Below the pieces are notes generated by a model. That model saw only the letters and a list, made by a program, of their open reading frames with translations. It searched no databases and was not told the origin of the DNA. 45,208 nucleotides of DNA from a virus. A program made the translations under genes and the position numbers. Shown piece by piece: positions 4,166 through 45,208 of this stretch. The DNA lies in the IMG/VR virus record IMGVR_UViG_3300017991_000027, positions 1 to 45,208 of that record, one strand, 5' to 3'. How positions within the stretch are numbered: the stretch's first letter is position 1; each line of letters begins with the position of its first letter.

Positions 4166-5050
4166 TCAAGCAAGCTCGGGGAGCACGGGGAACGCCGTAC
4201 AACGGCACTGGTAATCGTCCCCCGGGTGTCCCCGCCGCCCGTCTTCCGACATCTCCGGTGGGTTGTCCCATCGTTGCGTGGTCCCGTCCAAGTCCGCGTG
4301 AGTTTCACGGACTCGCCCGTCCCCGCTCGTGGACCATATGTACTCTTGGATCCCTAGATTCTGTTGGCGTTGCCGGGCGATCTGGGCGTTCAAGGTGAGC
4401 GTTTGATCACGTGCGAGAAGCGCCGCCTTGCTCTTGGTGACTCCGAAGCGATCGCGGATCTGGTCACGAAGTTGCTCCACCCGAAGCCCCACGGCGCCGG
4501 CGCTCTCGAGCAACTTGGTGATCTCCGTGAGCTCTTTCCCCACTAGGCTCGTGATCTTGTCCACGTTCCCCGCCCGCCACCCGTCCACGAGCGCCGCCAC
4601 GCCGGGATCCGCTGTCTCGATCGAGATCCCCACCACACGCTTGAGAGCGTTGTAATTCTTGCGAGAGACACGCTTCCCGATCACGTCCAGATCATCGCCC
4701 AAGGCGTCTTCGTCAAAGATGGCACCCAAGCGGAGCTCGATCGTCCCAAGCCGCCGGCGGATGTAGTCCACGGGGAGCGTTGGGGCGTCTTCGCGGAAGC
4801 CTTCCGGCGGCTCTTTCGTGATCCGGAAAGCGGGCGGCTCTTCGGGGATCGCGAGCTCGTCCAAGGCGGGGAAGATCAATTCCTCCACGGCTCGCTCCAC
4901 GAGCTCGAGCCGCTTGTGGATCAACCGGGTGAGCGCTAGCGCCGCCGCTCGTGGTTCCGTGGCGGAGTTGGCTCGCCGTACGGCTCGGCTCGGCTTGCGC
5001 CGTGCGAGCGCTCTCCGGCGCCGTGTGGCGGCGATACGGGCGAGCGCCAT
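4166..5050 (-). CDS. Head morphogenesis protein, Mu gpF / SPP1 gp7-like
   Basis: 294 residues, ATG at 5050, 3 nt after the portal gene. The C-terminal part carries the family signature: STSGDGRVRETHADLDG, then WDNPP and HPGDDYQCRCTAFP, with the paired Cys near the end. The N-terminus is strongly basic (RRRRALARRKPSR), suiting contact with DNA or the acidic tail of the portal. These minor head proteins associate with the portal and act early in head assembly or DNA ejection. The 44-nt gap downstream (4122-4165) shows no clear signal. Confidence 0.88.
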   Translation of the reverse strand: MALARIAATRRRRALARRKPSRAVRRANSATEPRAAALALTRLIHKRLELVERAVEELIFPALDELAIPEEPPAFRITKEPPEGFREDAPTLPVDYIRRRLGTIELRLGAIFDEDALGDDLDVIGKRVSRKNYNALKRVVGISIETADPGVAALVDGWRAGNVDKITSLVGKELTEITKLLESAGAVGLRVEQLRDQIRDRFGVTKSKAALLARDQTLTLNAQIARQRQQNLGIQEYIWSTSGDGRVRETHADLDGTTQRWDNPPEMSEDGRRGHPGDDYQCRCTAFPVLPELA

Positions 5051-5053
5051 GGG

Positions 5054-6685
5054 TCACTCCGTCTCGTCTTCGTCTTCGTCTTCGTCTTCGTCCGGCTCCG
5101 CTACGGGCCCGGGAGACGGCTCCGGCTCCGCCTCCGTGTCCGTCTCCCCGTCCGCCGGTGGCGGCTTAGGCTCGGCGTCCGCCGGCGGCGGAGGCGGCTC
5201 CCCCGGCGCTTGCATGTTGGCGGCGAGCTCGGCGGGGAGCGGCGCCGCTTGCGCCGCCTTGACGGCGGGATCGTCCAACGGATCCGGCTTCTCGGCGTCT
5301 TCCTCCAACTTGGAGAGCTCCGCCTCGAGCACGGCGTCCCGGACGTCCCGATCGATCTGTGTTTCGGGGCTCCACCCTTCCGATCGGAAGCGGGACAAGG
5401 CGATCTCTTCGGGGAGCAAGACTTCCGCCTCCACGTACAACTTGTCTTTCTCCGCTGTCATCTTCTCGAGCTCGGCTTGTTCCTTCGGCGTGGGTTGCCA
5501 AAGCGGAGCGAAGACGAGCTCCCAAACGTCCGGCTCTTTCCCCTTCGTGGGCCCGTCTTTGGCGAGCATGATCACCCGGACAAGTTTCTCGAGCTCGGGG
5601 CGGAGATCGTTTTCTTGGCTCGTGGCGATCGTGTCATAGAACCAACGGAAGTCGCTCTCTCCCGTGGCGTTCATTCCGGCGGGGCTCCGTCCCATGAGGA
5701 TCGTAACGGGGACTTCGGCGGCCGCCGCAAGCCGAGCCATCCACTTGTCCAACATGTTGGCGGCGTCCGTGAAGCTCGCTCCCTCCCTCGAGAAGTCTTC
5801 CCCGTTGTCCGCGTCCAAGAGAAGCGAGCGAGCCACGGAGCGGGACATGTCCACGAGTTGCATCCGCGTTTGGAGCTCTTCCTTCTGTCCGCCGGCGATC
5901 ATGCTCATGAGTCCGGCGATCTTGAACACGCCTTGGGACGCTTCGGACATAAGGTGTTGGGAGCTCGCCCAAACATCATTGAACGCCCGCAAGACGTCGT
6001 ACACGGCTCGGAGCACGGAGTGATCCCACCCGCCGAGACGATCCCGCTCTTCGTCCGTTGTGTGAGCTCCGCCGAAGACGAGAAGCCGGCTCCGGTGGAT
6101 CACCATGTTGATCGTTTGGGTGGCTCGCCGGGGGACAACGCGGAACGTCTCCGGCTCGCCGTACATCTCGTCTTTGAGCGGATCCGAGAAGTACGTTTCC
6201 GGGACAAGATACCGCTTGTCCACCACGTGGAGCCATCTCACGGACTTGATCTTGTCTTCGCGGAGCGGCTTGTCCGCCGGTTGCCCATCGTCCGCTCCGA
6301 TGATCACCACGGCTCCGCCGTACAAGCGTCCCCAGATCATCGCATCCCGGACGAGCTTGGCGGCTTTGAGATCGCGGAGTTTCTTCCCGATCGCGGAGCT
6401 CGTGTCCGTGTCTTCCTCCACGTTCACGGCGAAGCCCCGGCGCATCATCTCCCGGGGCTTGAGCGCCACCACACGCTTGGCGGTATCGTCTTGGTGATAC
6501 AGCGCCGTGAGCTCCGTCTCCGTGATCTCCGCGAGAGAGACGAAGCTCCCGTATTGCGTCTTGTCCCGGCTCGTCCCCAAGCCCGTGAACACGTTTTGCC
6601 AATTGTCTTGGACAAGGCGGAGCGCTTGCCACACGGCGCCACCCTTCGCGAGCATCCGTTGGAGGTGAGTTGGAGTCTTGCCCAT
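5054..6685 (-). CDS. Portal protein, DUF1073-like
   Basis: 543 residues, ATG at 6685, 5 nt after the large terminase stop. Family features seen: an early GSFVSLAEITETELTALY segment, RRGFAVNVEED, RLYGGAVVIIGADDG, and MGRSPAGMNATGESDFRWFYD, which is characteristic of DUF1073 portals. The last about 80 residues are a Pro/Glu/Asp-rich tail ending in alternating Asp-Glu, possibly a contact for the basic head protein or terminase. It should form the dodecameric ring at the packaging vertex. Order TerL, portal, Mu F-like, protease is standard. The family's older database label as an Acb1-like domain should not be read as anti-CBASS activity. Confidence 0.88.
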   Translation of the reverse strand: MGKTPTHLQRMLAKGGAVWQALRLVQDNWQNVFTGLGTSRDKTQYGSFVSLAEITETELTALYHQDDTAKRVVALKPREMMRRGFAVNVEEDTDTSSAIGKKLRDLKAAKLVRDAMIWGRLYGGAVVIIGADDGQPADKPLREDKIKSVRWLHVVDKRYLVPETYFSDPLKDEMYGEPETFRVVPRRATQTINMVIHRSRLLVFGGAHTTDEERDRLGGWDHSVLRAVYDVLRAFNDVWASSQHLMSEASQGVFKIAGLMSMIAGGQKEELQTRMQLVDMSRSVARSLLLDADNGEDFSREGASFTDAANMLDKWMARLAAAAEVPVTILMGRSPAGMNATGESDFRWFYDTIATSQENDLRPELEKLVRVIMLAKDGPTKGKEPDVWELVFAPLWQPTPKEQAELEKMTAEKDKLYVEAEVLLPEEIALSRFRSEGWSPETQIDRDVRDAVLEAELSKLEEDAEKPDPLDDPAVKAAQAAPLPAELAANMQAPGEPPPPPADAEPKPPPADGETDTEAEPEPSPGPVAEPDEDEDEDEDETE

Positions 6686-6690
6686 GGTCC

Positions 6691-8223
6691 CTAGCTCCCG
6701 CCTCGGAGTTGATCCCTCACGGCTCGCATGGCGTCCACGAAGGGGACGTGGCGCCGGACGAGCCGGATCAACGCTTGGGAAGTTTGGTCCACCATATCAT
6801 CGTTGATCCCACGTGGAAACGTGGCGACTTGGACGCGGTAGGCTGGCACCCACGAAGCGAGCTCCGGATGGGGGACGTACACGTTACCCGCTTGGAACAA
6901 GCCGGAGACGGCGTGGAGGCGGGCTTCCTTCCCGCCTTGGGGATTGACCAAGACGATCCCCGGGATCTTGCTCTTGAGCACGTCTTCCACGGCGGGCCCG
7001 TTCGCCTTATCCTCGATCAACTTGGTGATCGCCTTCGGGTGTTTCTTCGTCATGTCGATCACGGCTTGCGTGGCTTCAATGAAGCTCATACGGGCGCACA
7101 CTTGATCCACGAGAAACGCATCCGGCTTGACGTACAACCACACGCCACCCGCCACGAAGTCCGAGCCATCGGACTTTTTGAACGTCATGTCCCAAGACTG
7201 GATCCACACGCCGTGGTCCGGAAGCGGCTTGCACGTCTCTTGCTCGCAAGGGAAGAGCTCGTCTCGAGGCGGGCGAACGCCGTCCCTCCGATGCCAGTAG
7301 CGAAACCAACCCTTTTGGATGATCCCGCCACCCGCCGGCGTGGGTCTTTGCTGCAATTGAGCGGCCGCCACGCTCGGGCCCATCTCCACCCGCTCGAGCT
7401 CGGAGACGGTGAGCTCCGGAAAGCGCTTGGGCCACAAGAGCTCCCCGTCTTTGGTCCGCTTGTCTTCCGGCGTGCAACCCTTCCGGCCACACACGCAAAC
7501 GATCGTCCGCTCTCGGCGCATGGGCAAGCAAAGGTGATCCCACCCGTCTTCCCGTAACATCTCGCCCGCTAGATCGTCTTCGTGGAGTCTTTGCATGACG
7601 ATCACCCGGCGGAACGTCTCCGGATCGGCTCGCCTCGAGCTCATGGTTTCCCGCCACCACTGAGAAACCATGGTGATCGCCTTCCGGGTGACAGCGGCGG
7701 AGCCGGATACTTCCTTGGGCTTGATCGGATCGTCCACCACTTGGATATCCGCGTGGCGTCCGGTCGCCTTCCCCGCCACGGACGTGGAGAAACGGAAGCC
7801 GCCCGCCGTGTTGGAGTAATCCGTGGCGGAGGGACGGGGCTCCGTGAGACGCGTCTCCCATCGCCGTTCGTACCACTCGCTTTGAATGATCTTGAGCATC
7901 CGCAACGCGTCCCGCCGGGATAGGGACGCGTCGTACGAAGCAAACATCCACTTCGTTTCCGGCCGCTCGATCCACTCCCAAAGTGGCCAGAACACGGAGA
8001 CGGTTAGAGACTTCATTGTCCCGGGCGGGACGTTGATCACTAGGCGCTTGATTTCGCCAGCGCTCACGGCTTGGAGCCGTTCACACATGACGGGGATATG
8101 CCAGTTATCCACGAAGTCCACCGGCTCCACTAGATGCCAAGCCATCTTGACGAGCCGGTAAAGCGGATCGGGAGCTCGAGCTATGAGCTCCCGATCAAGC
8201 AAGGGGAGGGGAACGCGGGACAC
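6691..8223 (-). CDS. terL: Large terminase subunit
   Basis: 510 residues from a GTG at 8223. N-terminal ATPase: Walker A INVPPGTMKS (about residues 63-72), a FASYDASLSRRDALR segment, and Walker B QVVDDP (about 161-166) after SVAGKATGRHADI. C-terminal nuclease: SWDMTFKKSDGSDF, IEDKANGPAVED and DDMVDQTSQAL supply the acidic metal ligands of the RNase H-like fold. A Cys cluster (CVCGRKGC) sits between the domains. The enzyme pumps and cuts DNA at the portal. It is separated from the small-subunit gene by about 3.1 kb of regulatory and modification genes. Confidence 0.93.
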   Translation of the reverse strand: MSRVPLPLLDRELIARAPDPLYRLVKMAWHLVEPVDFVDNWHIPVMCERLQAVSAGEIKRLVINVPPGTMKSLTVSVFWPLWEWIERPETKWMFASYDASLSRRDALRMLKIIQSEWYERRWETRLTEPRPSATDYSNTAGGFRFSTSVAGKATGRHADIQVVDDPIKPKEVSGSAAVTRKAITMVSQWWRETMSSRRADPETFRRVIVMQRLHEDDLAGEMLREDGWDHLCLPMRRERTIVCVCGRKGCTPEDKRTKDGELLWPKRFPELTVSELERVEMGPSVAAAQLQQRPTPAGGGIIQKGWFRYWHRRDGVRPPRDELFPCEQETCKPLPDHGVWIQSWDMTFKKSDGSDFVAGGVWLYVKPDAFLVDQVCARMSFIEATQAVIDMTKKHPKAITKLIEDKANGPAVEDVLKSKIPGIVLVNPQGGKEARLHAVSGLFQAGNVYVPHPELASWVPAYRVQVATFPRGINDDMVDQTSQALIRLVRRHVPFVDAMRAVRDQLRGGS

Positions 8224-8232
8224 GTCTCGAGC

Positions 8233-9090
8233 CTACACCCGGCAACGCCCGAACGGCCGGAAGAGCATCCGGAAGCCTTCCACGGCTCGCTCGTCCACGG
8301 CTCGAGGATCCGGACTCGCTCCCTTGATCACGGGTGGAAGGAACACGATCACGTTAGCGTGTCCCGGCGAGTCTTGCTCCACTCGAGCTCCAACCGGCTT
8401 GGACGGATCGATCAACTCGCCCCGGCACTTGCCTTTCTCGATCTTCCGGTTGTGGGTATCGAACGAGATCCGCGAGCTCGGGACGCAAAAAGGAAAGTCC
8501 AACGGTTGGAGCGTGTCCAGCGCTTGAGCGGAGCGAAGGATCTCGAGCGTGAAGCCCACGAAGATCGCCGCCTCCACTTCCCCCGTCCGCCACGCTTCCG
8601 CAAGCGTTGCCCACCACAAGGCGGCGTTGGAGCTCGTCCCCATCCCTTGACACTCCGGCGGAACACGCCCGCCGGGTGGGTTGAGAAACACCCGTCCCAA
8701 CCACGGCTCCGCCAAGCCGTTGTCCCCGAACGGGGAGCCGGGCCCGTACCACGCCGCCGCTTGGACTTGCTCTTGGGCGAGCTCGCACGAAGCCGGATCG
8801 AGATCGATCTCTCCAAGCGTGGCTCGAGCCGCCTCCACGTACGGATGGGGCGTGTAGTGCTCCACGCTCTCGCTCGAGTGTTGGACAGTCACGGTAGGCA
8901 AGAGCTCCAAGCCGGGCGGCTCGCCGCCGGCGGGTGGAGGCTCGTCCGCTTGGACTGTCACCTCTTGGGTGAGAAGAATTGAGCCCGTCCCCTTGCATGG
9001 CACGCAAGCCGGATCCGCTCCGTCCCCGGGGCGGCTCTTGAGTCCGGAGCCTCCGCACGCCACACACTCCACCCTATCGGCGTGAGACAT
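8233..9090 (-). CDS. Dam-like adenine methyltransferase with N-terminal DnaJ-type zinc ribbon
   Basis: 285 residues from ATG 9090 (an in-frame ATG at 9132 also exists but runs deeper into the previous gene). Residues 8-35 contain CVACGGSG and CVPCKGTG, two CxxCxGxG units like half of a DnaJ zinc-finger. After a Pro-rich linker comes EHYTPHPYVEAAR...EIDLDPASCELAQ and GRVFLNPPGG: the SAM-site Asp-Pro-Ala block and an NPPG catalytic motif of phage DNA N6-adenine methyltransferases (Dam, PF05869-like). It probably methylates adenine in phage DNA; the target is unknown, though GATC is plausible. It overlaps the preceding gene by 17 nt and lies directly before large terminase. Confidence 0.78.
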   Translation of the reverse strand: MSHADRVECVACGGSGLKSRPGDGADPACVPCKGTGSILLTQEVTVQADEPPPAGGEPPGLELLPTVTVQHSSESVEHYTPHPYVEAARATLGEIDLDPASCELAQEQVQAAAWYGPGSPFGDNGLAEPWLGRVFLNPPGGRVPPECQGMGTSSNAALWWATLAEAWRTGEVEAAIFVGFTLEILRSAQALDTLQPLDFPFCVPSSRISFDTHNRKIEKGKCRGELIDPSKPVGARVEQDSPGHANVIVFLPPVIKGASPDPRAVDERAVEGFRMLFRPFGRCRV

Positions 9091-9358
9091 GAGGATCCGT
9101 CTCCGCGCTAAGGGACTCGTGATCCGCTTCACGTCGCCTCTTGAGCTCTTGGAGCCACCCGATCAAGTGGTCCCGATACTCGTGGATCGTTGCGCCGTCG
9201 CCTTGCTCGAGCGCCCGGATCACCACGTCCAAGGGGAACGCGTGACACGGCGGCCGCCTTGCTGGCGTTACTGTGAAGCCGTCTCCCTCGATCGGCTCCG
9301 CCCCGGACGGACACGTCCGGGGCTCCCAAAAGGGTTTCCCTTCCGGTGGCTTGCTCAT
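9074..9358 (-). CDS. Small hypothetical protein between XRE regulator and methyltransferase
   Basis: 94 residues, ATG at 9358, 8 nt after the XRE gene. It starts MSKPPEGKPFWEPRTC and ends with a charged helix (HEYRDHLIGWLQELKRRREAD). The middle segment PPCHAFPLDVVIRALEQGDGATI looks helical. No recognised family. Its tight spacing on both sides places it in the same transcript as the regulator and the methyltransferase. Confidence in it being real rests on operon spacing and the match of its codon use to neighbours. Confidence 0.6.
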   Translation of the reverse strand: MSKPPEGKPFWEPRTCPSGAEPIEGDGFTVTPARRPPCHAFPLDVVIRALEQGDGATIHEYRDHLIGWLQELKRRREADHESLSAETDPHVSRR

Positions 9359-9366
9359 GTGTTGCC

Positions 9367-9600
9367 CTATCCTTTCCGCCGCTTCACCAAGCGGACGTCT
9401 ATCTCGAGCCCAAGCGCCACGGCGCAACGCTCCAAGAGCGCTTCCGTAAGAGACGGGCTCCGAAGGATCTCCGGGACTCGGCTTTGGGATACCCCAAGCC
9501 GGCGGGCGAGCTCGGAGTGGGACACACCCATCCGCTCGCACGCTTCCGCCACGAGCTCCCCGAAGCTCTTGGGTTTTGGCTTCCGTGTTCGCTTCGCCAT
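9367..9600 (-). CDS. XRE-family helix-turn-helix regulator (small)
   Basis: 77 residues from ATG 9600. After a basic N-terminus (MAKRTRKPKPKS) the sequence SHSELARRLGVSQSRVPEIL is a clear helix-turn-helix of the Cro/CI (XRE) type, followed by SLTEALLERCAVALGLEIDVRLV, like antitoxin-type XRE proteins that end with a short strand. No toxin partner is adjacent: upstream is a terminator and promoter, and downstream is an unrelated small gene. The -10 box sits 6 nt before the ATG, so the transcript may be leaderless. A role in switching on the long late operon beginning here is inferred. Confidence 0.85.
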   Translation of the reverse strand: MAKRTRKPKPKSFGELVAEACERMGVSHSELARRLGVSQSRVPEILRSPSLTEALLERCAVALGLEIDVRLVKRRKG

Positions 9601-9606
9601 GGTCCC

Positions 9607-9636
9607 CTTATACCTCATGCTCGCCTTATGCCGCAA
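9607..9636 (-). promoter_or_regulatory. Promoter of the XRE/methyltransferase/late operon
   Basis: On the minus strand TTGCGG (9636-9631), 18-nt spacer, TATAAG (9612-9607), then 6 nt to the ATG at 9600. The -10 lies inside the 11-mer GAGGTATAAGG that recurs exactly at 10,251-10,261 (same orientation, same 6-nt gap) and 15,200-15,210. A further CCTTAT (plus strand) at 9624-9629 lies in the spacer. The start of transcription would fall at or next to the ATG. Confidence 0.55.
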
Positions 9637-9645
9637 CGCCCACGC

Positions 9646-9687
9646 AAAACGCCCCGCCCGCCGGGCGAACACGGAGCGGCGGGTGGG
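9646..9687 (-). terminator. Rho-independent terminator candidate
   Basis: Minus strand: CCCACCCGCCG, 13-nt loop, CGGCGGGCGGG (one A-C mismatch), then GCG and TTTT. It lies 44 nt after the stop of the small gene 9731-9952 and just before the promoter of the XRE gene, so it separates the small-terminase/DpdA/early unit from the late operon. Confidence 0.6.
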
Positions 9688-9730
9688 GCTAGATGGGGGA
9701 TAGGGCTTCCCCACCTAGCGCCCAACGGTA

Positions 9731-9952
9731 TCACACCCGGACGGCATCGAGTCCGAAGACGGGAACGCCGAGCTCCCGGGAGGCTCGCTCTCGAGCCGTC
9801 CACCACGAGCTCGCGGAGAGCTCGAGCTCCCCCACCCGCCACGCCACGGGGGCGTCCGTGGACTCGAGCTTCCAACGCTCGAGCGCTTCCACGCCGCCCC
9901 CGTGGTGGACCACGATCACGAAGTCCGGGCCCATGAGCTCCAAGAGATTCAC
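9731..9952 (-). CDS. Small hypothetical protein
   Basis: 73 residues from a GTG at 9952 that overlaps the previous stop as GTGA. Sequence MNLLELMGPDFVIVVHHGGG followed by an alternating acidic/aromatic segment (WRVGELELSASSWWTARE) and ending VFGLDAVRV. No domain recognised. Translational coupling to the gene at 9949-10,245 suggests the two products act together. A terminator candidate follows the stop. Confidence 0.6.
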   Translation of the reverse strand: MNLLELMGPDFVIVVHHGGGVEALERWKLESTDAPVAWRVGELELSASSWWTARERASRELGVPVFGLDAVRV

Positions 9953-10245
9953 TCGTTCGTCTCAAGCTCTTGGACGAGCTCTTGGAGATCCGCCACCCGC
10001 CGCTTGAGCCGGGCGTTCCGATCTTGGAGCTCGCGGATATACCCCACGGCGTCCCCGCCGATATCGATCGCATCCGGGAGCGGAGCCTCCAAGCCGCTCT
10101 CGATCGCATCGATCCACGAGCAAGCCGCCTCCACGCTCTCGCTCCGCTCTCTCGCCGCTCGAGCAAGCCCACGCAAGTGGACGAGCCCCGCCAAAACGCC
10201 CGGGGGAAGCCCCAAGCCTACCGTGTTCGTCTTCGTGTTCGCCAT
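9949..10245 (-). CDS. Small coiled-coil protein
   Basis: 98 residues, ATG at 10,245. The first half is Leu/Gly/Ala-rich (GLGLPPGVLAGLVHLRGLARAARE). The C-terminal 30 residues (YIRELQDRNARLKRRVADLQ) form a clear heptad coiled coil, suggesting dimerisation. It has its own promoter with the -10 box 6 nt before the ATG. Function unknown; size, early-type promoter and placement suggest a regulatory or host-takeover role, which is inference only. Confidence 0.65.
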   Translation of the reverse strand: MANTKTNTVGLGLPPGVLAGLVHLRGLARAARERSESVEAACSWIDAIESGLEAPLPDAIDIGGDAVGYIRELQDRNARLKRRVADLQELVQELETNE

Positions 10246-10251
10246 GATTCC

Positions 10252-10280
10252 CTTATACCTCCGTTCGTGTTGCTGTCCAA
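10252..10280 (-). promoter_or_regulatory. Promoter with -10 box 6 nt before ATG
   Basis: Minus strand TTGGAC (10,280-10,275), 17-nt spacer, TATAAG (10,257-10,252), then 6 nt to ATG 10,245. Same GAGGTATAAGG 11-mer and same geometry as the promoter at 9607-9636. Predicted to give a leaderless or near-leaderless mRNA for the coiled-coil gene. Confidence 0.6.
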
Positions 10281-10383
10281 CTTTCGGGCGGGCTCGGCGC
10301 TTGTTTTTTCCCACGCCGTTCCCGCCCGTGTGGGGCGCCGTGCGGGCTCTTGGTCTGTATGTGGGGACGGTGATCCCCCAAGC

Positions 10384-10411
10384 CCTAGCGGCGCCCCACG
10401 AAGCCGCTAGG
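10384..10411 (-). terminator. Hairpin at the end of the DpdA-like gene
   Basis: Perfect 9-bp stem CCTAGCGGC/GCCGCTAGG with a 10-nt loop; the TAG stop of the DpdA-like gene lies inside the 5' arm. No T-run follows, so it is either a weak terminator or an mRNA-end stabiliser. Between here and 10,245 lies a 160-nt gap holding the promoter described above and little else. Confidence 0.5.
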
Positions 10412-11240
10412 CGGCCGCCGTGGCGGGCTCGAGCTCAACGCCAAAGGCGAGCATGATCGCGAGCTCTTGGACGTGGAGCGAGCTCACGCCGGCGGCGATC
10501 AAGGCGGACGCCTTGTCCCGGCAACGGGTGAGAAGCCGGGGCTTGCGTCCCCGTCCTACGTTGGCGGCGATCCAATTGCTGTCACACGTGAGCTCCGTCT
10601 CCGGCGAGAGCTCGGACACGGCGGCGATCGCCTTGCTCATGTTGCGATTCTTGATCCCCATCCCAAGCAAGTGGAGACGGGCGGGGCGGACGGCGCTCAC
10701 GAAGGCGGCGAGCTCGTCCAACGTGGTTGCGCCTTTCTTGCACGGAAGCGCCCGGGTGTAATCCGAGAAGCCCAACACGCTCGAGACGGCGGCGTCAAAG
10801 TCCGCTTGGCTCATGCTCCCCTTTTGGATGGGGACGAGCACGTGGACGCCGAGCTTCCGAAGCTCGCGGAGCGCCGGCGCCCACTTGCGGAGCCGTACAA
10901 GCGTCTCACCTTGGAAGCCCACGCAATCGGGCGCCACGACGTGGAGCGCCGAGCCAAGAGCTCGAGCCAAACGGAAGTACACCCGGAAGACGTGGCGCCA
11001 CTTGGCATCCGTGATCGGGCGGATGATCTCGGGACCGGAGCTCGTGAAGCGTACCTCCGAGAAAGCGCCGCTATCCACGAACACGGGGACAGCGCCCGCC
11101 GTCGCCTCGAGCTCGCGGAGAGCGTTGGGCGAGAGCTCGGGGACCGCCACGCCGATCGGGTGTCCAACGGCGGCGAGCCCGCGGATATCGGCGGGACGGT
11201 TGCTTCCGGATGCGAAGTAGGTGGGGGACGTGGTGATCAT
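10407..11240 (-). CDS. dpdA: DpdA-like tRNA-guanine-transglycosylase family DNA-modification enzyme
   Basis: 277 residues from ATG 11,240 with a GGAG ribosome site 6 nt upstream. The order of motifs follows the TGT fold: VFVDSGAFSE (55-62, compare TGT DSGGFQ), APDCVGFQGE (103-112, position of the TGT Asp-156 loop), HVLVPIQKG (133-141, compare VQG), LHLLGMGIK (189-197, compare the glycine loop before the nucleophile) and LTCDSNW...GRGR (217-232), with Asp-220 as candidate nucleophile. Short, early, virus-encoded members lacking the tRNA-binding C-terminal domain are known as DpdA and insert 7-deazaguanines into DNA. No preQ0 genes are seen here, so a host precursor would be needed. It could instead be another TGT-like enzyme. 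Confidence 0.7.
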   Translation of the reverse strand: MITTSPTYFASGSNRPADIRGLAAVGHPIGVAVPELSPNALRELEATAGAVPVFVDSGAFSEVRFTSSGPEIIRPITDAKWRHVFRVYFRLARALGSALHVVAPDCVGFQGETLVRLRKWAPALRELRKLGVHVLVPIQKGSMSQADFDAAVSSVLGFSDYTRALPCKKGATTLDELAAFVSAVRPARLHLLGMGIKNRNMSKAIAAVSELSPETELTCDSNWIAANVGRGRKPRLLTRCRDKASALIAAGVSSLHVQELAIMLAFGVELEPATAAA

Positions 11241-11278
11241 GATGGGCTCCGTGTTCGTGGTTCTTGCCTTGGATCTAG

Positions 11279-11308
11279 AGTATAAGGCTATCCTTATGGG
11301 AAAGGCAA
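11279..11308 (-). promoter_or_regulatory. Promoter of the DpdA-like gene with overlapping dyad operator
   Basis: Minus strand TTGCCT (11,308-11,303), 18-nt spacer, TATACT (11,284-11,279), then a 38-nt leader with a GGAG ribosome site. A perfect dyad ATAAGG-CTAT-CCTTAT (11,282-11,297) overlaps the -10 and spacer and is a plausible repressor site. The half site ATAAGG/CCTTAT also occurs at the promoters near 9607, 10,252 and 15,204, and at 12,295. Confidence 0.55.
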
Positions 11309-11356
11309 AAGAAAACAACACGAGCTCCACTTTTTCCGGAGCCGCCTCGAGCTCGC

Positions 11357-11986
11357 CTAGTCCGCCGCTCCGGCTTTCGCCTCGAGCTCGCGAAGTTGCT
11401 CGATCTCACGGAACGAGAGACGGGACAGATCGAAGCCCACGTCCGTCTCCACCCGCTTGGTGACTTCCCCGAAGACAAGCCGCTCGAGCGTCAAAGCCTC
11501 TTTCACCACACGAGCGATCTCCCGTGGCGCCCACCGGAGCTTCCCGCCGGAGCGGGCTTGCTCCAAGAGCTCCCGGCAAGCTCGAGCGGAGAGCTCTTGC
11601 ATGTTGCGGAGCAAGTCCACGTGGCGAGCGGAACGCTCCCGGGCGCTCTCGTTCAAGAGCTCGTCCACCCGCTTCGCCCACTCCGTCTCCCGCCACGTGT
11701 CTCGAGCCGCCACCCGGTACACCCACCCGTCTTCCGAGCTCCAACGCTCGAGGCTTCGGAGATTCCACCGGCCGTGAGGATCGTCCCGCTCGAGCCACGC
11801 GTGGACAGCGCGGAGCGAGCGCTCACCCACGGGGAGCTCCCGGTATCGGACGAAGGCGTGCCACCGTCTCGGCGTGTCACACGGTTGGCGCTCCCATGGG
11901 CGTTCGTGATCGTACTCCGCCGGCGGGCTCGTCCCGTTGGTCAAGAGCGGCGCCGGAGCGCCGCCGTTGTCACTTCCGGAGCTCAT
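11357..11986 (-). CDS. terS: Small terminase subunit
   Basis: 209 residues from ATG 11,986. The N-terminal third has a helix-turn-helix-like arrangement: RRWHAFVRYRELPVGERS, then SLERWSSEDGWVYRVAARDTW, the typical 'W-S-x-x-x-W-x-x-R-x-x-x-x-D' pattern of phage small terminases. The rest is helical with long charged helices (residues 105-205), fitting oligomerisation and large-subunit contact. It should recognise the packaging site on phage DNA. It is the first leftward gene, with its promoter next to the probable origin, unlike the usual TerS-TerL pairing. Confidence 0.75.
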   Translation of the reverse strand: MSSGSDNGGAPAPLLTNGTSPPAEYDHERPWERQPCDTPRRWHAFVRYRELPVGERSLRAVHAWLERDDPHGRWNLRSLERWSSEDGWVYRVAARDTWRETEWAKRVDELLNESARERSARHVDLLRNMQELSARACRELLEQARSGGKLRWAPREIARVVKEALTLERLVFGEVTKRVETDVGFDLSRLSFREIEQLRELEAKAGAAD

Positions 11987-11992
11987 ACCGTG

Positions 11993-12021
11993 AGAATACC
12001 GGACGCCCACCGTACGAGCAA
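11993..12021 (-). promoter_or_regulatory. Leftward promoter for small terminase
   Basis: Minus strand TTGCTC (12,021-12,016), 17-nt spacer, TATTCT (11,998-11,993), 6 nt to the ATG at 11,986. The same -35 sequence, TTGCTC with a 17-nt spacer, occurs in the rightward promoter at 12,445. Predicted leaderless transcript. Confidence 0.6.
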
Positions 12022-12444
12022 CCACGGATCAACCACTTAGCCGATCCCGTGTCTCAGCGCCGCCCCGGATCGCGTCTCACTTCTCGCCCGTAACCTCCCG
12101 GAATCCCGTCCCCGCCGATCCCCTACTGAGACTCTGAGACACCCGGATCCGAATGATCTCCAAGGCTTGAGCCCCGTGTCTCATGTCTCAGCGCCTATAC
12201 CTTTATAGACGTGTATATGGTTTCTCTCCCTCCCTCCCTTTTTTCCTCTTTTTTCTCCGCCTCCCTCGATCATCTTTCCCAATCCTTTTAGCTCATAAGG
12301 TGAGACACTGAGACATTAGGATCTAACCTCTTGTTTTCCCTCGCCTTTCCGCGTCTCACCTCCACTGAGACACGCTGAGACAAGCGAGACTCCGCCCAAA
12401 AGCCGAATCATCCCGCCCACTTCCGCCGCCCCGGCGCTTTTCAC
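12022..12444. other. Divergent control region and candidate replication origin with TGAGAC iterons
   Basis: Non-coding. TGAGAC or its complement GTCTCA begins at 12051, 12074, 12127, 12135, 12178, 12185, 12301, 12309, 12353, 12366 and 12376: eleven copies, most followed by A to give TGAGACA, with paired spacings of 7, 8, 8 and 10 nt. A near copy, CGAGAC, is at 12385. Between the clusters lies an A/T-rich segment (12,194-12,216) and a pyrimidine tract (about 12,220-12,290) that could melt easily. The region sits beside the primase-helicase gene and between two mirror-image promoters, so origin and operator roles are both plausible. Confidence 0.65.
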
Positions 12445-12473
12445 TTGCTCCACCTACCCTAAAGCGTTTATAC
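12445..12473 (+). promoter_or_regulatory. Rightward promoter for the replication operon
   Basis: TTGCTC (12,445-12,450), 17-nt spacer, TTATAC (12,468-12,473), then 9 nt to the ATG at 12,483. The identical -35 in the leftward promoter suggests the same sigma factor or shared control. The leader would be only a few bases and carries no clear ribosome site. Confidence 0.6.
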
Positions 12474-12482
12474 CCTTCCCCT

Positions 12483-12806
12483 ATGTCTCTTGACGGTTTG
12501 GCGGGGCGTCTTCGGGCGGCGAGAGCGGCCGCGGACTTGACACAAGGCGAAGTGGCGGAGCGTTTGGGATACTCGTCCGCCACGATTGCGAATTGGGAAC
12601 GGGACCGGACGGAGCCTTGCTCCACGGATCTTCTCCGTCTCGCTCGTGTCTATTACGTCTCGGCGGATTGGTTGCTCGCTGGCGTCCCTCACCTCCCCCA
12701 CCGGTGGGATCCACCTTCCCTTCGTGTCCACGCCGATCGCTGTCCCCACGGCGTCCCCGTCTGGGACCGTTGCGTCACGTGTGAGGGGAAGGGAGCCCGC
12801 CCGTGA
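12483..12806 (+). CDS. Cro/CI-like XRE repressor
   Basis: 107 residues, ATG at 12,483. Residues 4-65 form an XRE helix-turn-helix domain: RLRAARAAADLTQGEVAERL, YSSATIANWERDRTEPCSTD, LRLARVYYVSADWLLAG. The last 30 residues carry Cys and His (CPHGVPVWDRCVTCEGKG), a possible zinc knuckle. It is the first gene rightward and probably controls the divergent promoters, perhaps through the repeats next to them. The stop overlaps the next start (GTGA). No integrase is present, so a lysogeny role is not supported; an early-late switch is more likely. Confidence 0.85.
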   Translation: MSLDGLAGRLRAARAAADLTQGEVAERLGYSSATIANWERDRTEPCSTDLLRLARVYYVSADWLLAGVPHLPHRWDPPSLRVHADRCPHGVPVWDRCVTCEGKGARP

Positions 12807-26400: not shown

Positions 26401-27672
26401 TCAACTCACCTCCCGGCGGCGTCGTACGCCGGAGCGCTCGAGCGCTTGGCGATACACGTCCACCGTCTTTTCCGCGGCCGCTTCCCAAGAGAACGCCCGG
26501 ATCCGTTCAAGTCCAAGCCGTGATAGTTGCTCACGGACCCTAGGATCGCGCAAAGCTCGGAGCCCCGCAACGATCGAACGAGCGTCCCCGGGTGGAACGA
26601 TCATGGCGTACTCTCCGCCGAGCTCGTCCGTCACGATCTCTCCGAGCCCGTCCACGTCCGTGGCGAGCATGGGAGCTCCGGAAGCCATCGCCTCGAGCGC
26701 CACGATCCCGAACGGCTCGTGTGTGGAAGGCATGAGCACGGCGTCCGCGGCCGCGTACAGATCGTGGAGCGCTTGTCCGTGGTGGAAGCCCACCCAACGC
26801 AAGCGCTCCGGGTGGCTCGCCTCGAGCGCCCGGATCCGTTGGGTAACTTCCCATGCTTCCCGCTCCGCCTCGGAGTTGGCGTTCACCTCTCCGGAGAGGA
26901 CACATTGCCACCCGAGATCGCCGCTCTCGATCGCCTCGAGCAAGGGGAGGATCCCCTTCATGGTGGCGATCCTTCCAACGTACAAACCCACGAGCCGATC
27001 GGCGGCGAGCTCGTGTTGGGCTCGAGCTCGAACTCCGTCCCCGGCGCCGGGATTCCACACGGCCGGATCGATCCCGTTGTGGATCATGTGGATCGGACGC
27101 TCCGTGAGAAACGTCTCCCGGATGATCCGGACGTAGGCATGGGAGCAAAGGATCGTCTCGTCCGGATCTGCTATGAGATTCCCTTCTTGGTTGCGGAGAT
27201 AGAATTCGATCTCCGGCCACTCCCCGATCGTGGCCATGCACGCCGGATCCTCCACCATGGCCAACTTCGTAATACAAAGGTGCATGGTCCCCACGAGCGG
27301 AACGCCGAGAGCGTCCCGCATCATCCGGCCGAGTTGCACGCTCGTCCACTCGTGTTCGTGTACGACGTCCCACCGATAGCCCGCCGCCAAGAGCTTGGAG
27401 AGCGTCCGGGCGATCTGGAGATCCGCAAAGAGGAAAGACGAGATCCCGGCGTTCTTGGGCTTGTAGCAAACGAGCTTGTCCGCCTGCCACTTGCGGAAGC
27501 CCTTGTACGTCTCGCACCCTTCCCCGGGACCGTTCGTCACGAAGTCCACGTGGACGTCTTCCCGCTTGGACATGTGGCGATAGAGCTCCCGGCAATGCAT
27601 CCCCATCCCGCCAAGGATCCACGCCGGATCTTCGTGGCAGATCGCCAAGACTCGGATCGGTTGTTCGATCAT
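26401..27672 (-). CDS. GT-B fold glycosyltransferase (GT4/GT5-like)
   Basis: 423 residues from ATG 27,672 (ATGA overlap with the preceding fibre gene). N-terminal Rossmann domain with IRVLAICHEDPAWILGGMG (glycine-rich acceptor loop at 21-24), VVHEHEWTS and a central SHAYVRIIRETF...MIHNGIDPAVWNPG block; C-terminal donor domain with VGLYVGRIATMKGILPLLEA and THEPFGIVALEAMASGAP, the E-x7-E donor motif. All hallmarks of retaining GT-B enzymes are kept, so it should be active, probably with a nucleotide-sugar. Set among fibre genes in the late operon, it may sugar-coat the fibres or change host surface glycans; DNA glucosylation is less likely because no hydroxymethyl-base genes are seen. Confidence 0.85.
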   Translation of the reverse strand: MIEQPIRVLAICHEDPAWILGGMGMHCRELYRHMSKREDVHVDFVTNGPGEGCETYKGFRKWQADKLVCYKPKNAGISSFLFADLQIARTLSKLLAAGYRWDVVHEHEWTSVQLGRMMRDALGVPLVGTMHLCITKLAMVEDPACMATIGEWPEIEFYLRNQEGNLIADPDETILCSHAYVRIIRETFLTERPIHMIHNGIDPAVWNPGAGDGVRARAQHELAADRLVGLYVGRIATMKGILPLLEAIESGDLGWQCVLSGEVNANSEAEREAWEVTQRIRALEASHPERLRWVGFHHGQALHDLYAAADAVLMPSTHEPFGIVALEAMASGAPMLATDVDGLGEIVTDELGGEYAMIVPPGDARSIVAGLRALRDPRVREQLSRLGLERIRAFSWEAAAEKTVDVYRQALERSGVRRRREVS

Positions 27673-28190
27673 GACAGCAACAAGAGCTCCCCCCACACGT
27701 TGAGCGTTTGGTACGACGCCGCGAAGTTAGTCCACGTGGTGCGCCACACTCTCGTGGTTGGCCCCGTGAGCGTGAGATACGCGTCCGTGAGAGCTATGTC
27801 CGCTCCGGTGGACGAAAACACTTTGGCAGAGAGGTAGAGGCTCGCCGCCGCTTTGGCGTATGTATGGGCGTACGCCGTCGTGGTGATCACGCCGTGCCCC
27901 CCGAGTCCGGCCGTCGCCGCCTCGAGCGAGCTCCACGTGGACACGCCAACCACACCGCTCTTGGCGTTTGCGAGCTCGAGCGTGAGGTTTGAGCGGAGCG
28001 AGAAGATCACGGCTCGCGTGGACAGCGGGACGGAGACGTCCCATTGTCCGGGCCCGCCGGGGAGCGGCGCTACGGAAAGCGTGGTGTTGCTCACCTCCAA
28101 GTTGGACGGCGCCACGTGGTGTTGATCCGGGAGCACGTTCGTGATCGCGGAGTGGAGCGTGGGATGGCGGAGCAAGTCTTCCGGACGCAT
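27669..28190 (-). CDS. Small fibre/receptor-binding protein, paralogue 3
   Basis: 173 residues from ATG 28,190. Starts MRPEDLLRHPTLHSAITNVL, then DQHHVAPSNLEVSN, which matches the DDHH region of the two genes before it, then beta strands (WDVSVPLSTRAVIFSLRSNL) and a C-terminal LTLTGPTTRVWRTTWTN. It appears to be a diverged member of the same three-gene family. Probably part of the receptor-binding apparatus. Its stop overlaps the glycosyltransferase start. Confidence 0.65.
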   Translation of the reverse strand: MRPEDLLRHPTLHSAITNVLPDQHHVAPSNLEVSNTTLSVAPLPGGPGQWDVSVPLSTRAVIFSLRSNLTLELANAKSGVVGVSTWSSLEAATAGLGGHGVITTTAYAHTYAKAAASLYLSAKVFSSTGADIALTDAYLTLTGPTTRVWRTTWTNFAASYQTLNVWGELLLLS

Positions 28191-44940: not shown

Positions 44941-45208
44941 TCATGCCACCCGGAATCCCGGCGTCACGCTTCGCATGAGCCGGGCGTGTTCCTTCCCGTA
45001 CGTCGTGGAGCCATCCTTGGAAACCATGCGGGCTTGCTGTCCCCATGGCGTGATCGCGAGTTTGTGAGCGGCGAGCCACCGGACACCCGTGTCCGTCTTG
45101 TCTCCCCACACTTCCGCGTCCACTTCCAAGGTGGCTTCCGCGATCGCTTCCCGGACCATGGGCTTTCCGGCCGGCTCGAATTCCGGGAAGCGAGCGAGAA
45201 ACGATCGC
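44941..45208 (-). CDS. Head-tail connector, DUF4054-like (C-terminal part, runs off right edge)
   Basis: The last 88 residues and stop (44,941) of the connector gene whose start lies at 137 near the left edge. Bases 45,086-45,208 duplicate 1-123, so both copies encode the same residues. Joined, the protein is 93 residues with KTDTGVRWLAAHKLAITPWG in the middle and SVTPGFRVA at the end. An internal ATG at 45,159 is in frame but the longer start at 137 is preferred because it restores the FPEF block. Confidence 0.78.
   Translation of the reverse strand, partial: RSFLARFPEFEPAGKPMVREAIAEATLEVDAEVWGDKTDTGVRWLAAHKLAITPWGQQARMVSKDGSTTYGKEHARLMRSVTPGFRVA
45086..45208. repeat. 123-bp terminal direct repeat, right copy
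   Basis: Exact copy of bases 1-123. Removing one copy gives a circle of 45,085 bp with no broken reading frame. Confidence 0.95.

Follow-up and report, generated by a model that had tools for sequence, protein, structure and literature searches.

The viral record IMGVR_UViG_3300017991_000027 (positions 1 to 45,208; the whole stretch of 45,208 nucleotides is called the window here) probably encodes a free-standing enzyme from a DpdA-like subfamily, as yet uncatalogued, within the tRNA-guanine transglycosylase (TGT) superfamily; the enzyme would replace guanine in phage DNA with a 7-deazaguanine supplied by the host. Three computational results carry this reading: the fold, the conserved residues, and a preQ0 operon that includes a relative. 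The initial annotation had proposed a DpdA-like, guanine-swapping enzyme; its membership in the TGT/DpdA superfamily and the preQ0 link of its subfamily held, while DNA as the substrate and the modification itself keep the status of a proposal. DNA 7-deazaguanine transglycosylases would thereby gain a subfamily overlooked by the family models searched, and one that is placed on plasmids and within polyvalent proteins.

The gene, its conserved residues and its surroundings

The open reading frame is intact, with an ATG start at 11240, and its 277-residue product contains the motifs VFVDSGAF (D56), VAPDCVG (D105), VPIQKG (Q139), LHLLGMG (H190, G193) and TCDSN (D220). The features of the gene and its surroundings are as follows.

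8233-9132, minus strand: Dam-like DNA methyltransferase gene, neighbour (phrog_111, E=1.7e-11)
10407-11240, minus strand: putative DpdA-like guanine/7-deazaguanine transglycosylase gene (277 aa, stop codon included)
10581-10583, minus strand: codon of D220 (CDS, in strand 216-221, strand 8), candidate nucleophile resembling TGT D280; conserved in 97/99
10824-10826, minus strand: codon of Q139 (PIQKG, after strand 5), resembling TGT Q203; conserved in 90/99; aligned with H141 of DpdA1, where it is His
10926-10928, minus strand: codon of D105 (APD, after strand 4), resembling TGT D156; conserved in 99/99
11073-11075, minus strand: codon of D56 (DSGAF, strand 3, end of strand 53-56), resembling TGT D102; conserved in 98/98
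11247-11250, minus strand: GGAG, ribosome-binding-site-like by sequence, 6 nt before the ATG
11279-11308, minus strand: promoter-like -35 TTGCCT, 18 nt, -10 TATACT; sole sigma-70-like match in 8100-12500 (0.3 expected)
11282-11297, unstranded: perfect inverted repeat ATAAGG-4-CCTTAT, possible operator, mostly in the promoter spacer; occurs without mismatch once in the window
11323-11343, minus strand: terminator-like hairpin between the small terminase and DpdA-like genes; weak (7 found in the region, where 3.1 are expected)
11357-12025, minus strand: small terminase subunit gene (phrog_6299, E=5.7e-11)

In the alignment of 99 homologous sequences, H190 was kept in all 99, and at least 97 sequences shared D56, S57, G58, A59, P104, D105, G141, H190, G193 and D220. 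Such conservation at about 25% identity across the family argues for a maintained active site. All motifs named in the initial annotation as following the TGT order were found, and their near-invariance among the 99 homologues argues against chance. The TGT-type zinc motif CxCxxC was absent from the protein, the cysteines of which lie only at positions 106, 167, 219 and 240. Neither Pfam nor the PDB (searched by phmmer) gave a match to the protein, and PHROGs only a weak one (phrog_15826, E=0.014); NCBIfam and PADLOC held no usable model for it, the PADLOC search returning no match, and Rfam gave no match either.

On one side the gene is flanked by the small terminase gene, on the other by a series of small genes leading to the methyltransferase and large terminase genes. 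That it has a promoter of its own with a dyad, as had been claimed, holds as a pattern; the timed expression before packaging proposed with it would have this promoter-like match as its one indication. In a related phage (L002; portal protein 68%), the genes for the small terminase, methyltransferase, large terminase and portal keep this order, but the DpdA-like gene is absent. This fits an accessory gene equipped with its own promoter-like site, the dyad within the spacer and the preceding terminator-like hairpin. Thus, of the two-layer DNA modification suggested earlier, the methyltransferase-like gene is real, but its link to the DpdA-like gene is weak, as L002 keeps the former without the latter. 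The methyltransferase-like protein has an NPPGG motif and an N-terminal zinc motif of the CxxCxGxG type, and no Pfam Dam match.

Several further observations concern the window. At 26401-27696, it carries a glycosyltransferase-like gene (phrog_2170, E=8.3e-11). CAG/CTG is strongly under-represented (0.17 of the expected frequency; 0.37 in L002), and among the Leu codons of eight window genes, CTC occurs 224 times versus 9 for CTG. GATC was observed 802 times, versus 150 expected by base composition and 655 by a Markov estimate; GAGCTC occurs 211 times in the window versus 0 in L002, and GGCC is depleted in both.

The subfamily and its relation to DpdA

Single-protein searches of viral contigs yielded no relatives, and tblastn of the window protein found none in 50,697 phage records; the first ones came from a tblastn search of plasmids (47 records at about 26-36% identity, lowest E 6e-16). 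The plasmid relatives looked at were annotated as "hypothetical" and, in Cupriavidus, as an LPD1 protein. When an alignment of four plasmid relatives (A2) was used as the query for viral and genome contigs, 79 IMG/VR contigs (up to 52% identity) and 22 genome contigs were found. The subfamily is large, occurs in phages and plasmids, and was missed by the protein family libraries searched. Absence from Pfam alone does not make it novel, because the DpdA proteins of phages 9g and 7-11 also lack Pfam models. The family of the latter two, phrog_887 ("queuine tRNA-ribosyltransferase"), matched six of the seven proteins of the first family set (best E=5.9e-6), the window protein not being among them. 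No recurrent partner gene was seen in the neighbourhoods compared across viral loci.

Many of the relatives form part of larger proteins (1000-4900 aa) that resemble the polyvalent proteins of phages and conjugative elements; 41 of the 78 viral reading frames with the domain exceed 1000 aa. A Pfam scan of four long frames found LPD1, LPD38 or ART-PolyVal in three of them: LPD1 in the Cupriavidus plasmid (L007), LPD38 in L060, ART-PolyVal with a PAPS-reductase domain in L035, and DUF6884 only in L032. Polyvalent proteins are injected alongside phage or plasmid DNA, and their described roles concern invading DNA (PMC5512222); the text of that 2017 survey mentions neither TGT nor queuine nor guanine. 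Injection of the polyvalent-borne domain may be read from this architecture, but the reading does not extend to the window protein, which, unlike these relatives, stands alone. Three minor observations were made on family members: the copy on a Geoalkalibacter plasmid (L006, 5995-7265) occupies two reading frames and is apparently broken; PAPS-reductase-like genes lie near plasmid members in L010 (2778-4415) and L011 (11995-12648), too few to build on; and the PAPS-reductase domain of L035 is fused with a family member (4334-10072).

Profile-profile comparison linked the subfamily to DpdA1-type proteins (alignment of Enterobacteria phage 9g, relatives and Salmonella phage 7-11; probability 96.5, E=9e-10) and to the DpdA of phage 7-11 (E=8.5e-6 over 167 columns). 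A profile built from the window and locus proteins (alignment A3) picked out the genes of 9g and 7-11 when run on those two genomes and nothing in those of nt-1, HVTV-1 or CP220; the transglycosylase genes of CP220 and HVTV-1 were not pinpointed. DpdA1 and the singleton DpdA of 7-11 belong to the TGT superfamily, as does the window protein, and share with it the strand-3 DSGAF, the D and IG that follow strand 4 and the DS of strand 8. Each also has a conserved His on strand 7, and these may be equivalent: H190 was aligned with H196 of DpdA1 in the profile-profile comparison but lay two residues off in the comparison with 7-11. In contrast, Q139 takes the place of the strand-5 His of DpdA1 (H141 in 9g), a residue invariant among the six DpdA1-type sequences compared; strand 7 reads HLLGMG in the window protein versus HGFG in DpdA1; 9g DpdA shows no pairwise BLAST similarity to the window protein beyond DSGAFS; and 9g carries its own preQ0 genes, which the window genome does not. 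Judged by the sequence, the window protein is not a DpdA1, having Gln in place of the invariant strand-5 His. DpdA2 (ORF390 of Vibrio phage nt-1, taken as the gene by position and motifs) reads HxLGxG in strand 7 and DS in strand 8, as does the window protein, but, unlike it, shows DSGG and FDE motifs as in TGT; the A3 profile did not match this ORF significantly (E=0.018, probability 2.6). For the further DpdA subfamilies of the 2023 literature, DpdA3 and DpdA4, the comparison was that of the A3 profile with the CP220 and HVTV-1 genomes, which gave no match.

Precursor supply and proposed reaction

Profiles for QueC, QueD, FolE and radical-SAM proteins (QueE) found nothing in the window genome, although the same profiles gave matches in control genomes. 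The genome is complete, as indicated by a 123-bp direct terminal repeat (1-123 and 45086-45208) together with genes for packaging, head, contractile tail and replication. The lack of FolE, QueD, QueE and QueC noted initially is therefore borne out, and a singleton DpdA-like enzyme dependent on host precursor is well supported: with no precursor made by the genome itself, the host or uptake would have to provide the base.

The link of the subfamily to preQ0 comes from another viral contig, L049 (IMG/VR 3300028384_001321), in which five genes lie in one row with overlapping ends.

4859-5299: QueD
5296-5907: QueC
5891-6430: FolE
6414-7010: QueE
7007-7792: family member, last gene of the operon

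Profiles confirmed QueC, QueD, FolE and the radical-SAM domain. The L049 member shares 31% identity with the window protein (E=2e-32), and the tree places both in one clade of 32 rows (SH-aLRT 99), L049 being on a long branch. The operon thus supports, at the level of gene order, a tie between the subfamily and preQ0. In Pfam, the L049 protein matches DUF6610, but below the cut-off (7e-5). Among 50 long viral records with a member, FolE, QueD and a QueE-like protein occurred together in L049 only; since the other viral records searched lack precursor genes, most members, including that of the window, are singletons. A QueC match in G003 (3.1e-7) was partial and was not counted as QueC. In L092 (6800-7993), a very distant member, a DpdA-like ORF of 201 aa, lies directly upstream of QueC; it adds to the genetic linkage with preQ0 synthesis and possibly represents another small subfamily.

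Base exchange is suggested by fold and residues, preQ0 by the L049 operon, and DNA rather than tRNA as the substrate by the link to DpdA. By analogy with TGT, D220 would attack C1' of guanosine in phage DNA, with release of guanine; a pocket around D105, Q139 and strand 6 would bind a 7-deazaguanine (preQ0 or a derivative); and D56 would act as general acid/base during attachment of the new base. The base would come from the host queuosine pathway or from uptake, and the product might shield virion DNA from restriction. Of two phages encoding only DpdA, Orion contains no 7-deazaguanine, and 7-11 contains dADG at about 0.02% of G (PMC6884629). Because of these singleton cases, modified guanine in the window genome is not to be assumed.

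The same cases (PMC6884629), together with a complete genome devoid of precursor genes, speak for a relict or condition-dependent DpdA, which would be catalytically able but confined to a host without precursor, leaving virion guanine ordinary. This is a possibility of some weight, if a rather unlikely one: the catalytic residues are intact and conserved in very distant members, so selection maintains activity in the subfamily, and the gene has a promoter-like site of its own. We think it improbable that the enzyme serves counter-defence by removing or exchanging a base (e.g., stripping a modified base such as host 7-deazaguanine) or that the base it inserts is something other than 7-deazaguanine. 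Most contexts, whether stand-alone or polyvalent, do lack precursor genes, and the strand-5 pocket is unlike that of DpdA1, but the L049 operon makes preQ0 directly beside a family member.

Returning to guanine exchange with host-derived 7-deazaguanine, a bolder and quite tentative extension, which we consider unlikely as a whole, is that phages and conjugative plasmids widely employ this subfamily to exchange DNA bases with scavenged precursors. The enzyme, often delivered within injected polyvalent proteins, would use the recipient's queuosine precursors to mark entering DNA before restriction. The L049 operon offers a direct test case. If singletons use host precursors, guanine modification in phages and plasmids would be far commoner than searches for precursor genes suggest; if they do not, the role of singleton DpdAs becomes a testable question.

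Predicted fold and relation to TGT

The AlphaFold2 model of the window protein, for which A3 served as the input, is a TIM barrel (mean pLDDT 92.1, pTM 0.86) with the key residues at or near the C-terminal ends of its eight strands. The strand ends carry D56, P137-Q139, P166, H190-L192 and D220, with one end beside P104-D105, in the order of the TGT pocket. In Zymomonas TGT, this pocket consists of D102, D156, Q203, G230, M260 and D280. Foldseek alone ranked other TIM barrels of the PDB on top (aldolase/lyase, TM about 0.45-0.49), and no TGT was among its best 50 rows. When Foldseek's 1000 best chains were re-aligned with VIA-align 2, TGTs made up all of the best 50 (Z 13.8-14.5, rmsd 3.4-6.0, 194-241 residues), the first-ranked structure being a TGT with preQ0. 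The model thus has TGT as its closest fold and the Asp pair at strands 3 and 8, D56 and D220 being assigned as the D102- and D280-like residues by motif order and strand ends rather than by residue-level superposition. Model and motifs together support membership of the window protein in the TGT/DpdA superfamily of base exchangers.

The likeness to bacterial TGT comprises the fold (Z about 14) and the Asp/Asp/Gln/Asp pocket pattern; bacterial TGT is longer, with a zinc motif, whereas the window protein is shorter, without this motif and without a Pfam match. As TGTs are the closest solved structures and the strand-5 Gln is as in TGT, the gene product could be a phage TGT that acts on host or phage tRNA and alters decoding. 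We hold this to be quite improbable in view of the shorter, zinc-free protein, the profile link to DNA-acting DpdA1, the window in which no tRNA gene was found, and the many relatives fused into polyvalent proteins with roles that concern invading DNA (PMC5512222). An unrelated TIM-barrel enzyme with chance motif resemblance, to which Foldseek's own best PDB matches would point, is highly implausible given motifs in order at the right strands, the TGT-only best 50 after re-alignment and the DpdA1 profile match. Among viral models, the best match (37% identity, TM 0.76) was an 877-aa ART-PolyVal protein, while the fifth-ranked was annotated as "queuine tRNA-ribosyltransferase" and comes from Arthrobacter phage Mufasa8.
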